IMG/VR virus record: IMGVR_UViG_3300027759_000462
Coordinates: 1-22,368 of that record
Direction: 5' to 3' (one strand)
Source: a virus
DNA: 22,368 nt
Below the pieces are notes generated by a model. The model had not been told where the DNA came from and did not search any database. It saw only the letters and a list, made by a program, of their open reading frames with translations. Position 1 is the stretch's first letter. The number at the start of each line of letters is the position of its first letter. Shown piece after piece: positions 5,025-20,103 of this stretch. The translations under genes were made by a program, and so were the position numbers.

Positions 5025-5504
5025 ATGAACATTAAAAATTTACAATTGGTACTAGAAGATACATTTTCAGGCAATTTTGTCAGTTACTATCGTAGCCATG
5101 TGGCACATGTGAATATCCAAGGACGTAATTTTTATGCAGACCATAAACTGCTACAAAAAGTGTATGAGTACTTTCAAGGCAACATTGATGTGCTAGCTGA
5201 AAAGCTACGCACAGTACGTGCCATGATGCCAGTGGACCTAATGACAGTGACCATGTCTAGTCCTGTTGCTGATCAAGCTGCTGTGGGTGATAGTGAAGAC
5301 CTGTTTGAACAGGTGTTGGAAACATTAGAAACCATGATCAATCAATATGTGGATTTGAACGAAGCTGCTGAAGAAGTCAACTACATTGACATTGCCAATT
5401 TTGCACAGGATCAAGTTGCTGTGTTGTCCAAGTTCCGTTGGATGATTGAAGCCACACTAGATCGTGACACTGACACAGAAGAAGATCCAGACACGGACGA
5501 CTAA
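5025..5504 (+). CDS. Dps-like ferritin-family protein
   Basis: A 159-residue protein with GGAACAG before its ATG. Residues 15-62 align by eye to the Dps core: HVNIQGRNFYADH matches the family pattern HWNxxGxxFxxxH, followed at the right spacing by an acidic pair in DVLAEK. Taking E. coli Dps H51, H63, D67, D78 and E82 as reference, the equivalents are H28, H40, Q44, D55 and E59, so four of five ferroxidase-site residues are kept and one Asp is Gln. A second pair of helices follows (about 90-145), as in the four-helix ferritin fold. The acidic tail (last about 12 residues) is unusual. Dps proteins form 12-mers that oxidise iron with peroxide and may coat DNA. The lone change could weaken iron oxidation. 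Fold call fairly sure, activity uncertain. Confidence 0.78.
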   Translation: MNIKNLQLVLEDTFSGNFVSYYRSHVAHVNIQGRNFYADHKLLQKVYEYFQGNIDVLAEKLRTVRAMMPVDLMTVTMSSPVADQAAVGDSEDLFEQVLETLETMINQYVDLNEAAEEVNYIDIANFAQDQVAVLSKFRWMIEATLDRDTDTEEDPDTDD

Positions 5505-6451: not shown

Positions 6452-7023
6452 TGACCAAACATAGAGATAGACAATTTAATTATCGTGCAGGTGACTTCAT
6501 GATCAACCTGGAACGCTTTGAATCTAGATGTGAACCAGACCCTGCGGGATCAGACTGCATCATATGGACTGGTGTAAAAAACAACATTGGTTATCCATTC
6601 ATGGGAGCCAGACACATTGTGACAGACAAATACAAGATGGTCACTGGACACAGAATGGCTCTCACAATCAAACTGGGTAGGCCTATAGCCCCAGGTATGA
6701 ATGCCAATCACTCATGCCATAGAAGAGATTGTGTGAATCCTGACCATTTATTCGAAGGCACACAACGGCAAAAAGTGTTGGACATGGCACGTGATGGTAT
6801 CAAAACTGGTAGGCCTGCAGGCAATCCCTACAATCACAAACAACACAATCGCAAGTACCGTTATTCCGAAGAGGAAATACAAGCTGTGCGAACCATGCCA
6901 CCAAAACAAATAGCTGCCAAATACAACTTGCCAATTCGACGTGCTTACACAATGAAAGCTTCGTTTCGAAATACCTATCGTTGGCTACCATTACCCGATC
7001 AAATCAAAGGAGATAAAAAATGA
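6451..7023 (+). CDS. HNH homing-type endonuclease
   Basis: A 190-residue protein starting after AAGGAACTG. Residues 86-100 carry the HNH_3-type motif NHSCHRRDCVNPDHL: the first His (87) and the NPDHL Asn-His pair (96, 99) make the beta-beta-alpha metal active site, with Cys89 and Cys94 nearby. EGTQRQK after it is the usual follow-on of this family. The basic C-terminal half (about 120-175) contains a helix-turn-helix-like segment (YSEEEIQAVRTMPPKQIAAKYNLP) that would recognise DNA, as in free-standing phage HNH nucleases. It nicks or cuts DNA, possibly to spread itself or to exclude a rival phage. It is the first gene of a coupled run: its TGA overlaps the GroES start. Confidence 0.9.
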   Translation: MTKHRDRQFNYRAGDFMINLERFESRCEPDPAGSDCIIWTGVKNNIGYPFMGARHIVTDKYKMVTGHRMALTIKLGRPIAPGMNANHSCHRRDCVNPDHLFEGTQRQKVLDMARDGIKTGRPAGNPYNHKQHNRKYRYSEEEIQAVRTMPPKQIAAKYNLPIRRAYTMKASFRNTYRWLPLPDQIKGDKK

Positions 7024-7286
7024 CATTACAAGCAACAGGCACTAGATACGTAATTCGACCAGTAGAATTGACCATGGCGTCAGCTGGTGGCATCATACTT
7101 CGATCAACAGAAGACACACAATTGGCAGAAGTTGTTAGTATTGGCCCCCGGGTAGAAGAACCGCTACCTTTAGGCACCAAAATTGTGGTAAATTGGAACC
7201 ATACGGTGCCAGTAAAGCACGAAAACGAAGCCTTGTGGATCATAGAATCAGGTGCGGTAGCCGCAATATATGAGGAGAACGAATAA
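7020..7286 (+). CDS. groES: GroES-like cochaperonin (Cpn10 family)
   Basis: An 88-residue protein, close to the usual 90-100 of Cpn10, with a strong AAAGGAG site. Order of features: N-terminal strand with YVIRPVE, a mobile-loop position ending GGIIL (23-27), AEVVSIGP (36-43), then the strand block PLGTKIVVNW and the roof region. The segment GGIIL matches the hydrophobic tripeptide that docks on GroEL in this family. Cpn10 caps the host GroEL chamber; phage versions (T4 gp31 type) adapt it for a large capsid protein. The mobile loop looks short and lacks the usual Lys/Thr-rich stretch, so pairing with the host GroEL is inferred. Coupled on both sides (ATGA upstream, TAATG downstream). Confidence 0.88.
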   Translation: MTLQATGTRYVIRPVELTMASAGGIILRSTEDTQLAEVVSIGPRVEEPLPLGTKIVVNWNHTVPVKHENEALWIIESGAVAAIYEENE

Positions 7287-8025: not shown

Positions 8026-8271
8026 TTGAAACCAACCGTAAGACAACAGGTAGAAACAAAGTTTTCTGGCTACGAAGAAGAACGTAGACAACGTGTGCGT
8101 GAAGAACAACGCCGTAAAGATCGTGAACATGCTGTATGGGTTGACAGCGATGATGCCCTGTTTGAGATTTTAAAGAATCCTGGCTTGGCTACACCGCCTA
8201 GCCAAAGACCCGCACCCACTGGCGCAGAATTATTAGAGATAATGATTCGTGAACGCAAGGACAAGAAATGA
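8026..8271 (+). CDS. 81-residue highly charged protein, TTG start
   Basis: There is no usable ATG; TTG at 8026 with GGAG seven bases before it fits. Residues 14-40 are a strongly charged helix (EEERRQRVREEQRRKDREH), then VDSDDALFEILKNPG and a Pro-rich stretch, then a final helix. Its stop overlaps the start of the primase-polymerase (ATGA), so it is the first gene of the replication operon. Basic helix plus location suggests a nucleic-acid-binding or replication accessory protein, but no family was recognised. Confidence 0.72.
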   Translation: MKPTVRQQVETKFSGYEEERRQRVREEQRRKDREHAVWVDSDDALFEILKNPGLATPPSQRPAPTGAELLEIMIRERKDKK

Positions 8272-9203
8272 ATTACATTGAACTGGAAGTTGTGCCGTCT
8301 TGGCGTTATTGTAATGTACGTGGCGGTGAAAAGGTTCCTTATCCTGCAGGCTGGCAACGAGATCCCAAACGCATACGAGATATAGAAAGTGCCAATGTGG
8401 GCCTATTACTGGGTCCTACCAGTGGTGGTTTGGTTGCATTAGACTTTGATGGCGCAACGGCATGGTCATGGTTTGAACAGCGTATTGGTTGTGCATTACC
8501 TGGCACAGTGATGTGGACAAGTGGCAAGGATTCGCGTTGCCAAATGGCATTTACGGTGCCTGAACAGTATTGGGATTATGTTCGCACACAAAAGATTACA
8601 AACACACGTGATGATATGATTGCTGAAGGTGAAGGCTTTGAGTTTCGTTGGACAGGATGCCAAAGTGTCGTGCCTCCTAGTGAACTGGCTGATGGTAGGC
8701 AATACACGTGGATTGCAAGTCCTACTCAAACAGACGTAGCTGAACTGCCAGATGAGATCTTGGCCTATTGGCTAACCCTGGGTGAAAATCGCACAGTCGT
8801 AAATACTAATCCAGTTGAAGACATTGATATTGACAGCATCAATGAAGACAAGTTTACTGAACTCACAGCAGTATTGGAACTGATCAGGCAACAGATTCCC
8901 ACACCTGATTACGATGTATGGATGCGTATTGCATTTGCCACAGCCAGTGAAGTGGGCAACAGCGTTGCTGCTGTGTTGTTGGCTACATTTTGGCCTGAAC
9001 GCATACGAGGTGAGTATGCAAGACTGCTGGCGTCAAGAGATCCCAGCCGCAGTCCTACCATAAAGAGTCTGATGTTTATGGCCACAGAACAACGCAGAAT
9101 ACAGCATGAAAAAAAACGAGCAGTATATCAACAACAGTTGGAAGAAATAAAGGAATTGGAAAGAATCATTAAGGAAAAGAAGAATGAAAAATCTAAGCAT
9201 TGA
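8268..9203 (+). CDS. Bifunctional primase-polymerase (AEP Prim-Pol)
   Basis: A 311-residue protein. Residues 44-61 give the Prim-Pol entry: VGLLLGPTSGGLVALDFD, with the catalytic metal ligands D59 and D61 in the DxD motif. The second motif, usually S-G-G-x-H, reads SGKDSRCQ (85-92), a His-less version that also occurs in cyanobacterial-type Prim-Pols. EGFEFRWTGCQSVVPPS (121-137) fits the third acidic block. About 185-285 (DYDVWMRIAFATAS) resembles the PriCT-2 domain. The enzyme makes primers and may extend DNA. It ends by overlapping the helicase gene by 20 bases, and the pair forms a split replisome core: in many phages and plasmids the two domains are fused. Start ATG has AAGGA. Confidence 0.82.
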   Translation: MNYIELEVVPSWRYCNVRGGEKVPYPAGWQRDPKRIRDIESANVGLLLGPTSGGLVALDFDGATAWSWFEQRIGCALPGTVMWTSGKDSRCQMAFTVPEQYWDYVRTQKITNTRDDMIAEGEGFEFRWTGCQSVVPPSELADGRQYTWIASPTQTDVAELPDEILAYWLTLGENRTVVNTNPVEDIDIDSINEDKFTELTAVLELIRQQIPTPDYDVWMRIAFATASEVGNSVAAVLLATFWPERIRGEYARLLASRDPSRSPTIKSLMFMATEQRRIQHEKKRAVYQQQLEEIKELERIIKEKKNEKSKH

Positions 9204-10509
9204 AGAACTAGAAGATCTACTGGATCAAAAACGACAGCAGGTGGCAACGGGTGCCATAATTTTTACTGAATTGACTTCAAAAGGTGCAGTAAAGAGCACA
9301 TTGGCCAATGCAGAAACCCTAATTGCACATTGCGGCATCACTATCAGACACAACGAAATGACCAAGGAAATAGAAATTGACATTCCTGGAGTCACAATAC
9401 ATGCAGATACTGCTATAAATGCCGCACGTGGTTACATACGCAGTTATGCACATCAACATGGTATGCCTGTGGGCGAACTGGATGCTTACATAGCAACCAT
9501 AGCCAATGCAAATGCATACCATCCGGTGCGTGATTGGATTGACGCACAGGAATGGGATGGTCGGGATAGACTGGGCGATTATTATGATACTATTGTGTGT
9601 GGAGCCAACAGTCAACAGATTGGAAATACCCTAAAAGAAACACTGATGCGTAAATGGGCACTTGCTCTAGTGGCCAGCTTGTATGAACCACAGTTCAGTA
9701 TGGAAGGTGTGTTGTGCTTGTATGGTAGACAGGGCATTGGCAAGACAAGTTGGGCATATGGCCTAATCCCAAAAGAGTACGGCAACAGATGGATCAAAGA
9801 TGCTGTGGCCCTGGATGTGGGCAACAAAGATTCAGTGATGAAAGCAGTGGGCACTTGGATCACTGAACTGGGCGAACTGGATAGTACATTTAAAAAGTCA
9901 GATCTTGAAGCACTCAAAGCCTGGATAACTGAAAAGCAAGATGTTATACGTCCGCCTTATGAACGCTCAGCCAACAAGTATGCTAGACGCACAGGCTTTT
10001 ATGCCACACTGAACACCTTGGAGTTTTTGAATGATGATGAGAATCGACGCTTTTGGGTGCTAGATGTGGATGCATTTAGATTTCCCCGATATGATCTGGC
10101 ACAGTTTTGGGCACAGGTCAAACGCCTGTATGATGTGGTGAGTCCTTTGTGCAAAGATCCTGAAAGCCGTACTGTGAATCAGGAATGGGGCTGGTTCCTT
10201 ACTCCTGAAGAACGTGATGTGTTACAACAGAGTCAGAACCCATTTAGAACTGTGGATCCTGTGATTGAAACACTAAGCAATCATATTGTTGCACCACAGC
10301 ATATGAAAACTGTGCGTGGTGAAAACTTGAACATAACTGAAATACTCAAGCGTTGTGGCATGGATCGTGTGAGCAAACGGGAAACCACAGCCGGTGGCAA
10401 ATGGTTACGTGAACAGGGTTTCCGTAGTGATAGACAGAAAAGATTCACAGTTGAGATAGTGGATCAGACCAAAACCCTGCCACATTTGAAGGTAGTTGAC
10501 AGCATTTAG
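9184..10509 (+). CDS. VirE/D5-like superfamily 3-type replicative helicase
   Basis: A 441-residue protein of the virulence-associated E family. Walker A GRQGIGKT at 181-188; Walker B-like TWITELGELD at 224-233; then the family signature DVIRPPYER and LNDDENRRFWVLDV (282-295), with the Arg pair a likely sensor/finger. The N-terminal 110 residues are a separate domain holding no motif I recognise. The family provides ATP-driven DNA unwinding beside a Prim-Pol. The start has AAGGAAAAGAAG ahead of it and lies in the 3' end of the primase gene. Its stop is seven bases before the first copy of a short repeat array that looks like a replication origin, which supports the initiator-helicase role. Confidence 0.88.
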   Translation: MKNLSIEELEDLLDQKRQQVATGAIIFTELTSKGAVKSTLANAETLIAHCGITIRHNEMTKEIEIDIPGVTIHADTAINAARGYIRSYAHQHGMPVGELDAYIATIANANAYHPVRDWIDAQEWDGRDRLGDYYDTIVCGANSQQIGNTLKETLMRKWALALVASLYEPQFSMEGVLCLYGRQGIGKTSWAYGLIPKEYGNRWIKDAVALDVGNKDSVMKAVGTWITELGELDSTFKKSDLEALKAWITEKQDVIRPPYERSANKYARRTGFYATLNTLEFLNDDENRRFWVLDVDAFRFPRYDLAQFWAQVKRLYDVVSPLCKDPESRTVNQEWGWFLTPEERDVLQQSQNPFRTVDPVIETLSNHIVAPQHMKTVRGENLNITEILKRCGMDRVSKRETTAGGKWLREQGFRSDRQKRFTVEIVDQTKTLPHLKVVDSI

Positions 10510-10515
10510 AGCAGG

Positions 10516-10610
10516 TGCGACTATGTAGATAGTCGCAAAAGTGACATAGTCGCGGGGGATAGTTCCTGGTTTGAGCTATAGCTGCTGGAAGAATGCGACT
10601 ATGCGACTAT
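10516..10610. repeat. Five GCGACTAT iteron-like repeats
   Basis: Copies: + at 10517-10524, - at 10529-10536, - at 10546-10553, + at 10595-10602, + at 10603-10610. The first two are arms of a hairpin (TGCGACTAT / ATAGTCGCA with a 4-base loop). The last two are a head-to-tail pair, TGCGACTATGCGACTAT. Four of the five extend to the 9-mer TGCGACTAT. Confidence 0.9.
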
Positions 10611-10669
10611 CTTGTTATATATATAATATAATAATAATAATATTTTTTATATATATATAGCAAGATAGT
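10606..10669. repeat. 20-bp inverted repeat bracketing an A/T block
   Basis: Arms 10606-10625 and 10650-10669 match at 19 of 20 pairs (the odd pair is T-G). The 24-base loop is all A/T. This could extrude as a cruciform. The left arm begins inside the last GCGACTAT copy. Just after it, ATAGTATCT (10665-10673) and AGATACTAT (10714-10722) form another 9-bp inverted pair across the start of the next gene. Confidence 0.85.
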
Positions 10670-10675
10670 ATCTTT

Positions 10676-11008
10676 GTGGTAGATGGTAGCCGCACCGTAA
10701 ATACCCACATGAGAGATACTATTACCATACGCGGACGCACATACCTGGTCCAAGAGCTACTTAAACAAGTGTCAAAGAGTTCAGTAACCAATTTGAGAAC
10801 TGGCAGAACCAATCGCGGCGCTAGAGCGCCTACCAAATATTCGATAGAAGAACGACGTTGGCAAGCTGCGGCTACCATTGCAGAAATTATTGAACGTTAC
10901 AAATTAAAAGAAATACAGGCCCGTAGCATACAATGGAAAGCCAAACAGATCCTAACGCTTGTGGATGTGCCAAGCCCGCTCACGGAAAAGGATTCAGAAC
11001 ATAAATAA
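10676..11008 (+). CDS. Basic 110-residue hypothetical protein, start uncertain
   Basis: First gene after the origin-like region. The longest reading uses GTG 10676; ATG 10709 would give 99 residues. Neither has a clear ribosome site. The protein is basic (RGRTYLVQELLKQ, NLRTGRTNRGARAP) with a helical C-terminal half (EERRWQAAATIAEIIERYKLKEIQARSIQWKAKQIL), which would suit DNA or RNA binding. No family was recognised. Its last seven bases are TAAATAA, the junction motif, and the next ATG is four bases on. It is the opening gene of the packaging/head run, so a regulator or a terminase helper are possible. Confidence 0.62.
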   Translation: MVDGSRTVNTHMRDTITIRGRTYLVQELLKQVSKSSVTNLRTGRTNRGARAPTKYSIEERRWQAAATIAEIIERYKLKEIQARSIQWKAKQILTLVDVPSPLTEKDSEHK

Positions 11009-11015: not shown

Positions 11016-11369
11016 GAACAAGCAAAGAAACGATACCAAACCAAAGCTCCAAGTCGTGGTGGTGCAAGGTCAGGCGCTGGCCGACCCAAAGGCAGCACTA
11101 ATAAGATCACCATGGACACCTTGTTGCAAAACCTTGATGTGCAGCTTGGGCGTAGCTATGCCGAACAGATAGCCATCAACTACACCACGGCCATTGACCG
11201 TGCAGACTGGTCCGGAGTGAGAGACTATGATCGTGTGTTGTTGGGCAAGGTTGTGGCAGACAAGCTGGAAGTTGAGTCAACCAACAGTGAAGATGCAGTC
11301 GCCGCCAAAGCTGAAGCTTTCGCAGCGGCCCTGACAGCATTGACACAGGTTGCCAGGACTGCTAAATAA
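11013..11369 (+). CDS. Candidate terminase small subunit
   Basis: 118 residues from ATG 11013; an in-frame ATG at 10959 would start inside the previous gene and is not favoured. Near the N-terminus is GGARSGAGRPKGSTNK (16-31), an AT-hook-like, Gly/Arg/Lys segment common at the start of phage small terminase subunits and related proteins. Helical segments follow (DTLLQNLDVQLGRSYAEQIAINYTTAI, VRDYDRVLLGKVVADKL) and an Ala-rich tail. It is the first product in the packaging run, but about 4.8 kb from TerL, so the role is inferred from motif and size only. The small subunit would bind the packaging site and start cutting by TerL. Confidence 0.5.
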   Translation: MEQAKKRYQTKAPSRGGARSGAGRPKGSTNKITMDTLLQNLDVQLGRSYAEQIAINYTTAIDRADWSGVRDYDRVLLGKVVADKLEVESTNSEDAVAAKAEAFAAALTALTQVARTAK

Positions 11370-15536: not shown

Positions 15537-16175
15537 ATGAGTCACATCGTGGCCAACCTACCGCCTGTGAAATGTTTTGTGCGTAGAGAGTTTCTTTATG
15601 ATCATGAATCAGGACATGGCGAACTGGAACCCGCCTGGTGGATCACAATCAAAAGTCTAAGAGGTCAAGCATTCCGTATTGAAAGTTATCTAAATCAATA
15701 TGGCGCATTGTATGACAAGTTGCCGCTACATGCCTACTGTTGGAAACCTATTGAAGGTGAACCTTTACCGTTAGACTATTTGCAACTATGGGACTGTCTC
15801 AGTTACGATATCACTGTGATCAAAAAAGCACAGTTGCAGAGTATGAAGTGTCGATTCAAATTAAAGTCGGGAGCCTGGATGTCAGGTGAATACATGTTCA
15901 CTGTGGACTCAGCACATCCAGACTTCAACACACTTGATACCGGCTTTTCAGAAGATGTAGAAGATCACAAAAGCTACAACTTCATACGGTGTGACAACGG
16001 ACAGTTTGCCGCACAGCCCAACAACAGACTACTGATTCTTGAACCCAGTAGCAATCCAAAAGAATTAAAGCGTCCAGATTTTCGAGTAGCAACTCAACGC
16101 TGGTCAGTAGAAACAGAAGCCAAGTGGGCACTAGGTGACACTGACACAGTCATGTACGAACACACACCCAAATGA
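15537..16175 (+). CDS. 212-residue conserved-type protein upstream of TerL
   Basis: ATG sits three bases after the previous stop, with no clear ribosome site, so coupling is likely. The protein opens with NLPPVKCFVRREFLYDH and has an ordered alpha/beta look (WWITIKSLRGQAFRIESYLNQYGALYDKLP). I have a general memory of similar proteins next to TerL in aquatic phages, but cannot name a family or function. Its TGA overlaps the TerL start (ATGATAG), so the two are made together, which may mean a role in packaging. Confidence 0.75.
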   Translation: MSHIVANLPPVKCFVRREFLYDHESGHGELEPAWWITIKSLRGQAFRIESYLNQYGALYDKLPLHAYCWKPIEGEPLPLDYLQLWDCLSYDITVIKKAQLQSMKCRFKLKSGAWMSGEYMFTVDSAHPDFNTLDTGFSEDVEDHKSYNFIRCDNGQFAAQPNNRLLILEPSSNPKELKRPDFRVATQRWSVETEAKWALGDTDTVMYEHTPK

Positions 16176-17826: not shown

Positions 17827-20103
17827 ATGCTTGATATCAAAAACGTAGTAATCAGCAACTTAGACAATGCCCGCGGCATGATGGCCCGCTTTGTCAAAAT
17901 GCACAACCTACTACAAACTAAATGTGCAGCAAACCTGCGCCTGCTGGCTACTAAAAACCAGGTAAATCGTGCCAGCGACTATCATTACCTAGTGTTACCA
18001 GTGACACAAAGTACGGAACCAGTTAACGGTATTGATTACATACATCCTGTGGTAAAACCCATGGTTGATTATGCCACTGCTGTGATCACCAAAGGTATTG
18101 CACAAAATGGTGAGATCAATTTTGAGTTTGTACCAGACAATGAACGGGATGAAGTTGCAGCACGCCAAGCCACCAACATGGTACACAAGCTGATTAACCA
18201 AAACAACGATCCACACACTATCTTACAGCATTGGGTTATGGATGCTTGCCTACACAAGAATGGTGAAATGATGATTGCACCCATGCGTGAAAGTTTCGTA
18301 CGCTATGTGACCACAACCGGTACTGCTGATCAACTGGCTGCATTTGAACAACAGGCAGCAGATTCAGGCCTAACTGTGCTACGTCAGAGTCGTCGCAAAA
18401 CAGATGTGGACATGGCCAAGGTCATAAAAGAAACCAAAGACTTTGTAGATCAATTGCCAGAAGCACAGCGTCAAGCTGAAATGGACACACGCATTGCCAC
18501 TGCTGAAGCAGGCTCACGTGGCGAGTTTGACAACATGACAGAAGAAGTGCCCAACATAGAACTAGAACAAGGCGAAGATGTCATTGCTGATAGTATTGCC
18601 CGTAACACCAGCTATGAAGCCAAGTACAAACTAACAGGTTATACTGTCAATGTGAAATTCCGTCCCATTGCACAACATTATTGGTTGTGTGATCCCACTG
18701 TTATCTCAATTGAAGAACAACCATTCTGCGGTTTCTACAAACCAATGAGTATACAAGAAGCCACAGAGCTTTATCCAGACATTGATCTAGAACAATTCAA
18801 AATACACGCTGAATATTCAAACGTGGGTGCTTTCCAAGCAGGCTCATTGCTAAACAACTTGGCCTTACATGCACGTGACTCAGTTCCTGTAAACGGTTTA
18901 CCATCAACAGGCTATAGTGCCCAAGAACCAGAAGCACGTCAAGTTACAGTATTGACCATTTGGAATCGTTATGACATTGACAATGATGGTGAACTAGAGT
19001 TAGTTGAAATTGTTTACTCAGGCACATACATTATTTCGGCCAAAGAAGTAGAATTTATTCCAGTGGCCAACATGGTACCCAAACCCCTGGCACAAAACTT
19101 TTACGGTATGAGCATTGCTGAATCAGTAGTGCCCATGCAAGAGTATGCCACTAGTGGCTATCGTGCAGAACTACAACTGGGCTTGCTGACTGCCACACCA
19201 CGTATTGGTGCCAAACCAGACAAATTGGATTTTGAAATGTTACAGGACGGTGAAGCTGCTATCTTTATTTTAGACAGCAAATTTGATCCGGCTAAAGACA
19301 TTTACCAAATTCCCCCACCAAGCGGAAACAATGCATTTATTGAAAGTGCAATGAATCGCATACAACAAGACAGCATGGCCATGATTGGTATGACCAGTCC
19401 ACAGGATGTGTTCAATCCTGAAGTGATGAGCCCAGGTAACTCAGGAGCAAAACTACAGTTGGCTCTAGGACCAAATCAAATTATCCAAGACAACACAGTT
19501 AAGAATAGTGCCGAAGGCATGAAAGATGCCATTTGGTTAGTATGGCGTACACTGGTACAATACGGCGACGACTACGGTGTTAAGAAATTGGCTGCTGAAT
19601 TCCACCCAGATGGAAAGCCAGAGTTTTTAGATTACCTGGCGTTTGATGACATGAACTTCAATGAACGCAAGACCATACACATTGAATTGGGTCTTGGTAT
19701 GAAGTCAGAAGAGAATAGTTTACAACGCTTGCAGATTATCAAACAAGCACAAACTGGGCTCACACAAGAAGTTACAATGGGAGTTCAAAGCGGAGCATTA
19801 ACTCCACAAGCATTTAAAAAAATACGTAAGCCTTACGAAGACATGTTGTATGTGTTGGGCATCAAAGACGCCAACGCATATTTGCCTACTGAAGAAGAAG
19901 TTATGGAAATGGTCACACAAGCACAAGAAAGTAAAAAGAATGCTGAGCCAAGTCCAGATGACAAAAAGAAGATTGCAAGTGCTCACCTTGATGATGTACG
20001 TGCTAACCAAATTGAAGCTGAAGTTGCTGGCAACACAGCTAGCAGTCAACTTGAAGGCTATGCTCTATTAGAAGAACACAAAGCCAAAAGCTACGGAACA
20101 TAA
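17827..20103 (+). CDS. Portal protein (P22/SU10-like)
   Basis: A 758-residue protein, close to P22 portal (725). The middle has the expected block IDNDGELELVEIVYSGTYII (about 380-400), then QNFYGMSIAESVVPMQEY (about 421-438), then a helical part with IQQDSMAMIGMTSPQDVF and a clamp-like region. The last about 100 residues are charged helix (KKLWK-like, ESKKNAEPSPDDKKK), typical of portal barrels. It forms the 12-subunit ring at the capsid vertex through which TerL pumps DNA. The gap before it holds CTAAATAAT (17792-17800) and a GGAT site at about 10 bases. Immediate partners are TerL upstream and scaffold and capsid genes downstream. Confidence 0.88.
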   Translation: MLDIKNVVISNLDNARGMMARFVKMHNLLQTKCAANLRLLATKNQVNRASDYHYLVLPVTQSTEPVNGIDYIHPVVKPMVDYATAVITKGIAQNGEINFEFVPDNERDEVAARQATNMVHKLINQNNDPHTILQHWVMDACLHKNGEMMIAPMRESFVRYVTTTGTADQLAAFEQQAADSGLTVLRQSRRKTDVDMAKVIKETKDFVDQLPEAQRQAEMDTRIATAEAGSRGEFDNMTEEVPNIELEQGEDVIADSIARNTSYEAKYKLTGYTVNVKFRPIAQHYWLCDPTVISIEEQPFCGFYKPMSIQEATELYPDIDLEQFKIHAEYSNVGAFQAGSLLNNLALHARDSVPVNGLPSTGYSAQEPEARQVTVLTIWNRYDIDNDGELELVEIVYSGTYIISAKEVEFIPVANMVPKPLAQNFYGMSIAESVVPMQEYATSGYRAELQLGLLTATPRIGAKPDKLDFEMLQDGEAAIFILDSKFDPAKDIYQIPPPSGNNAFIESAMNRIQQDSMAMIGMTSPQDVFNPEVMSPGNSGAKLQLALGPNQIIQDNTVKNSAEGMKDAIWLVWRTLVQYGDDYGVKKLAAEFHPDGKPEFLDYLAFDDMNFNERKTIHIELGLGMKSEENSLQRLQIIKQAQTGLTQEVTMGVQSGALTPQAFKKIRKPYEDMLYVLGIKDANAYLPTEEEVMEMVTQAQESKKNAEPSPDDKKKIASAHLDDVRANQIEAEVAGNTASSQLEGYALLEEHKAKSYGT

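Follow-up and report, generated by a model that had tools for sequence, protein, structure and literature searches.

A probable iteron-type replication origin directly 3' of the VapE-like helicase gene of a podovirus-type phage, with counterparts in related phages

We analysed a 22,368-base virus record (IMGVR_UViG_3300027759_000462, a contig that is a fragment, referred to here as the window) and found that the stretch between the stop codon of its VapE-like helicase gene and the start of the next gene is very probably the replication origin of the phage. An initial annotation of the same DNA had suggested this role from its repeats, and comparison of related sequences now supports it well, since arrays of repeats and an A/T block recur at the same place 3' of related helicase genes, with a different iteron word. 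The site provides a precise candidate origin for an uncultured podovirus-type phage.

Genes on either side of the site point rightwards, in the order Prim-Pol, VapE-like helicase, repeats, a 99-aa gene, a TerS-like gene, TerL, SU10-type portal and major head protein. No family match was obtained for the 99-aa gene, and the TerS-like gene (approximately 11016-11369, about 0.35 kb 3' of the site) was named by eye from its sequence and gave no curated family match. As the window carries TerL, portal and major head protein genes, it does not qualify as a PICI, that is, a satellite without a full set of virion genes; its source is a podovirus-type phage contig, not a satellite. Searching the window for Rfam families and tRNAs returned nothing. 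Elsewhere among the phage genes, we observed a ferritin/Dps-like protein (5025-5504, +; PF00210, E 3.6e-13), a short GroES/Cpn10-like protein (7020-7286, +; PF00166, E 5e-5) that is also kept in the related locus L003, and a gene (15537-16175, +) which strongly matches phrog_3704 'ferredoxin' (E 4.6e-81) and has no Pfam match, so that the label may be wrong. The contig starts with a proline-rich tandem repeat (PPVTT / PPVQ units, 1-250), similar in kind to repeats at the end of L007. The features of the site and of the two replication genes are collected in Table 1.

Table 1. Coordinates of the proposed origin, its elements and the adjoining replication genes in the window
Feature	Position	Strand	Remarks
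Split primase-polymerase (Prim-Pol)	8268..9203	+	PF09250, E 4.9e-19; overlaps helicase gene
VapE-like AAA+ helicase, proposed origin-binding initiator	9184..10509	+	PF05272, E 1.5e-43
Helicase residues 355-425, predicted winged-helix C-terminal domain, proposed iteron reader	10246..10458	+	AlphaFold2 model
Proposed replication origin	10510..10705	.	Spans helicase stop to start of next gene
Iteron 1, TGCGACTAT	10516..10524	+	5' arm of 9-bp hairpin with iteron 2
Iteron 2, TGCGACTAT, inverted	10529..10537	-	
Iteron 3, GCGACTAT, inverted	10546..10553	-	
Iteron 4, TGCGACTAT	10594..10602	+	First of tandem pair adjoining A/T block
Iteron 5, TGCGACTAT	10602..10610	+	Second of tandem pair, 8-bp spacing
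Inverted repeat	10606..10669	.	20-bp arms, 19/20 complementary; 24-nt loop
45-bp A/T-only run, proposed DNA unwinding element	10615..10659	.	Highest A/T of locus
Degenerate right-hand iteron AGATAGTATCT	10663..10673	-	Weak score
Degenerate right-hand iteron TGGTAGCCGCA	10684..10694	-	Retained in L003

The 8-mer GCGACTAT was found on the forward strand at 10517, 10595 and 10603 and on the reverse strand at 10529 and 10546, all within 10517-10610; one further copy, the sixth, falls within the portal gene at 17975. Only 0.22 copies are expected in the whole window, and six were reached in no shuffle. Four of the five clustered copies extend to TGCGACTAT, while that at 10546 reads CGCGACTAT. The array is as the initial annotation had described it, with five 8-mers (four as the 9-mer) in both orientations, the first starting seven bases after the helicase stop codon (10507-10509). 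Array and A/T block both stand far above chance. Two features had been overlooked, namely a perfect 9-bp hairpin formed by iterons 1 and 2, and two weak inverted copies to the right of the A/T block. The best score on the right-hand side is matched by 5% of random 55-bp stretches and the second-best by 0.3%, the two top matches overlapping each other.

The A/T block and its 19-of-20 matching arms (10606-10625 and 10650-10669) were likewise borne out, and the strand that carries the inverted repeat folds better than 200 of 200 shuffles (z -5.5). Some half of each 20-bp arm consists of (TA)n, which pairs with itself; what is informative is a perfect 9-bp ACTATCTTG/CAAGATAGT match, seen in 0.14% of flank shuffles. 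The idea that the cruciform is an essential part did not hold. L003, whose helicase is 84% identical, has degenerate iterons, the A/T block and GCAAGATAG to its right, and has lost the 9-bp non-A/T arm on the outer left, so that the 20-bp cruciform was ruled out as the functional core. In relatives the A/T block has the highest A/T of the locus and lies at the same distance from the helicase stop. The conserved element is the A/T block, and the cruciform is not conserved. Two stable hairpins after a stop codon might also be read as transcription terminators of the helicase transcript, with the A/T run as a by-product. We regard this as very unlikely, since a terminator scan found no terminator-like site, conservation does not extend to the outer arm of the long hairpin, and a terminator has no need of a multicopy, lineage-specific iteron word.

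The first relatives found were L003 and L002, the latter a near-identical contig. In L006 (63% identity) CGGCTATC and GATAGCCG repeats surround an A/T block directly after the helicase gene, and in L007 (47%) TCATCTAT-type repeats occupy this place; from L003, L006 and L007 we therefore conclude that the word differs between relatives that share the position and the plan. A profile search for helicase relatives yielded 80 loci, in which a recurrent plan was seen 3' of the helicase: iterons, often one of them inverted, then a tandem pair with the A/T block, then inverted copies on the far side. In most clear cases the tandem pair and A/T block lie about 80-115 bp past the helicase stop. The word differs by lineage, and includes GCGACTAT, CGGCTATC, TCATCTAT, GGGTTACT, TTTACATC, GTGACACC, GTTACGCC and GTCCAACC among others. 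Clear iteron sets on both flanks of the A/T block are present in L027, L028, L033 and L062, whereas the right-hand set of the window is degenerate only.

Clustering at 70% identity gave 41 scorable lineages, each of which was scored against random stretches of its own locus. The iteron score was in the top 2% for 21 of the 41 helicase clusters and the A/T score for 20, and 17 passed a 5% threshold on both. All six clusters at 46% helicase identity or more have a top-ranking A/T block, and at least one member of each carries repeats directly 3' of the helicase; the representatives L010 and L017 score weakly for iterons, and their cluster mates L011 and L018 have clearer arrays. No array was found directly 3' of the helicase in L022, L024/L025 and L038, nor in the cultured phages Mica, Murka, Mano, ep3 and Vibrio 1.009. 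Relatives that lack repeats at this place had been named beforehand as evidence against an origin; they do exist, but only among far more distant relatives, at about 30-35% identity, and the six clusters at 46% or above carry repeats. By eye, nearly the whole L035 origin (after 3948) resembles an imperfect inverted repeat centred on the A/T block, within which a second element (AACCCTTACTGGGCTTGAG) appears next to the iterons. A second common element (TTTTTGCGTCTAGCGATACCGC-like) was also seen 3' of the helicase in L010-L019, located after the first iterons and before the tandem pair.

Even where the primase, the following gene and TerS differ, the array remains beside the helicase. The structural genes of L009 and L011 are closely related to those of the window (TerL 80% and 72% identical). 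BLAST nevertheless gives no match to the window Prim-Pol in either, the 99-aa gene is absent and the TerS-like gene is more than 1 kb off, with the array still directly behind the helicase. No match to the TerS-like gene was found near the array in L015-L036, and in L006 the array is followed by a reverse-strand ORF. In the primase position before the helicase, ORFs without a Pfam match were noted in L009 (1690-2664) and L016 (7049-7975), and mainly a PriCT_2 match in L011/L018; the primase partner seems either to be exchanged or to evolve far faster than the helicase.

The persistence of the array behind the helicase in L009 and L011 argues against two other functions for the site. It is unlikely that the repeats are operators, bound by a repressor and not by the helicase, with the A/T block as the promoter region of the downstream structural or small genes. 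The region does sit between the replication and structural modules, and sigma-70-like matches occur on both strands of the A/T block (6 against 2.6 expected in the stretch); promoters are, however, often present within origins too. The array persists though the downstream gene differs among relatives, as in L006 and in L009 and L011, and its word is tracked by the C-terminal domain of the helicase (see below). A packaging (pac/cos-like) or other terminase site beside the TerS-like gene, which in the window starts so close by, is more improbable still, and a packaging site next to terS was rejected, given that in L009, L011 and L015-L036 the array keeps to the helicase irrespective of that gene.

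We next consider the helicase as the candidate reader of the iterons. It scores 149 bits against PF05272 (curated cut-off 25), which places it in the VapE-like family. Among solved structures the closest to it is 7PDS, 'The structure of PriRep1 with dsDNA', a VapE-like initiator, which was both its best fold match (E 9e-21) and a profile match (E 4.7e-63). PriRep1 is the SaPI1 protein. A first structure model of the helicase, built from 4 sequences, was poor (pLDDT 57) and was set aside; the AlphaFold2 model used is a second one, from 34 sequences (pLDDT 85). Its C-terminal elements follow the order H359-367, E380-382, H384-390, H398-410, E421-423, which we read as a predicted winged helix.

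Domain identity was compared with iteron similarity for pairs among 27 helicases, with correction for core identity. C-terminal identity followed iteron similarity (partial r 0.29), a value equalled in 0 of 2000 label permutations, in which shared ancestry is only partly controlled for; N-terminal identity did not track it (r 0.09, p 0.09). Pairs with about 58% core identity had a C-terminal identity of 50% if they shared the word and of 34% if their words were unlike. The core of L011 is closer to L017 than to the window (68 v 59%), its C-terminal domain is closer to the window (50 v 30%), and its iteron is that of the window. There is, statistically, a link between the iteron word and the predicted C-terminal winged-helix region, and not the N-terminal domain. 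We lean, by a small degree, towards the view that the C-terminal winged helix changes fast and that through it every lineage recognises an 8-9-bp word of its own. If this is true, sequences could be used to derive a recognition code and the groups of phages and satellites with replication cross-talk, and words held in common would predict which of them can fire each other's origins. With many initiator/iteron pairs now collected, the DNA-reading specificity of these self-loading helicases becomes directly testable.

In the mechanism that we propose, the VapE-like helicase encoded just upstream would be the initiator of an origin of the iteron / A/T block / inverted-iteron kind. Its C-terminal winged-helix domain would bind GCGACTAT iterons, the likeliest sites being the tandem pair at 10594-10610 together with the weaker inverted right-hand copies, and one or two helicase rings would assemble adjoining the A/T run. 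The bound ring or rings may then melt the 45-bp run, load onto the separated strands and start to unwind the DNA; primers would be made by the Prim-Pol that the overlapping gene encodes. Because the right-hand copies are weak, binding on one side or on both is possible, and replication could accordingly proceed in one direction or in two, depending on whether these copies are bound as well. GC skew at third codon positions was calculated for nine contigs. In the phage of the window it switches sign at the site, from +0.12 to -0.10, which is the reverse of the change at a classical origin. The other contigs show no consistent pattern, and the skew therefore counts neither for nor against an origin here.

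For origins of VapE-type phages we found no paper in the open-licence literature, and the comparison was made with three known systems. In the pri-rep-ori replicons of SaPIs and PICIs (SaPIbov1, SaPI1, EfCIV583, EcCICFT073), the origin lies directly 3' of rep and iterons flank an A/T region (PMC6092414, PMC7581432); in these precedents and in Cch2, the iterons are bound by the C-terminal domain (PMC6092414, PMC7581432). The window origin also lies directly 3' of the gene for an initiator helicase, with iterons beside an A/T-rich region, and this helicase is a PriRep1 (7PDS) homologue whose predicted C-terminal winged helix may bind DNA. Unlike these satellites, the window is a phage contig that encodes TerL, portal and capsid proteins of its own; it also differs in its iteron word and in the weakness of its right-hand iterons.

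SCCmec Cch2 has a putative origin downstream of its helicase gene, read by the C-terminal domain (PMC7581432). The binding site 3' of the helicase gene and a primase-polymerase in the same operon resemble the window, whereas the three AAGTG iterons and the D5-type helicase do not, and the Cch2 origin is putative in vivo (PMC7581432). The annotated 302-bp origin of Streptococcus thermophilus phage Sfi21 (NC_000872, 34487-34784; PMC6356513) consists of a TTAGTTAC pair, an A/T block and an inverted GTAACTAA pair. Sfi21 is likewise a phage, with a split Prim-Pol upstream, an origin immediately 3' of the helicase gene and the same anatomy as the window. Its helicase is of the D5 type (Pox_D5, DUF5906); a close homology to the window helicase was ruled out, as BLAST detects no similarity.

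The initial suggestion of a new origin type is not upheld. Because its layout matches that of SaPI/PICI origins and its position, with a split Prim-Pol upstream, that of the Sfi21 origin, the window origin belongs to a known kind. Earlier examples of this layout come from phage satellites and a single streptococcal phage, and in 2018 it was called PICI-only; in the sequences compared here it is nevertheless widespread among phages, each lineage having its own repeat word.
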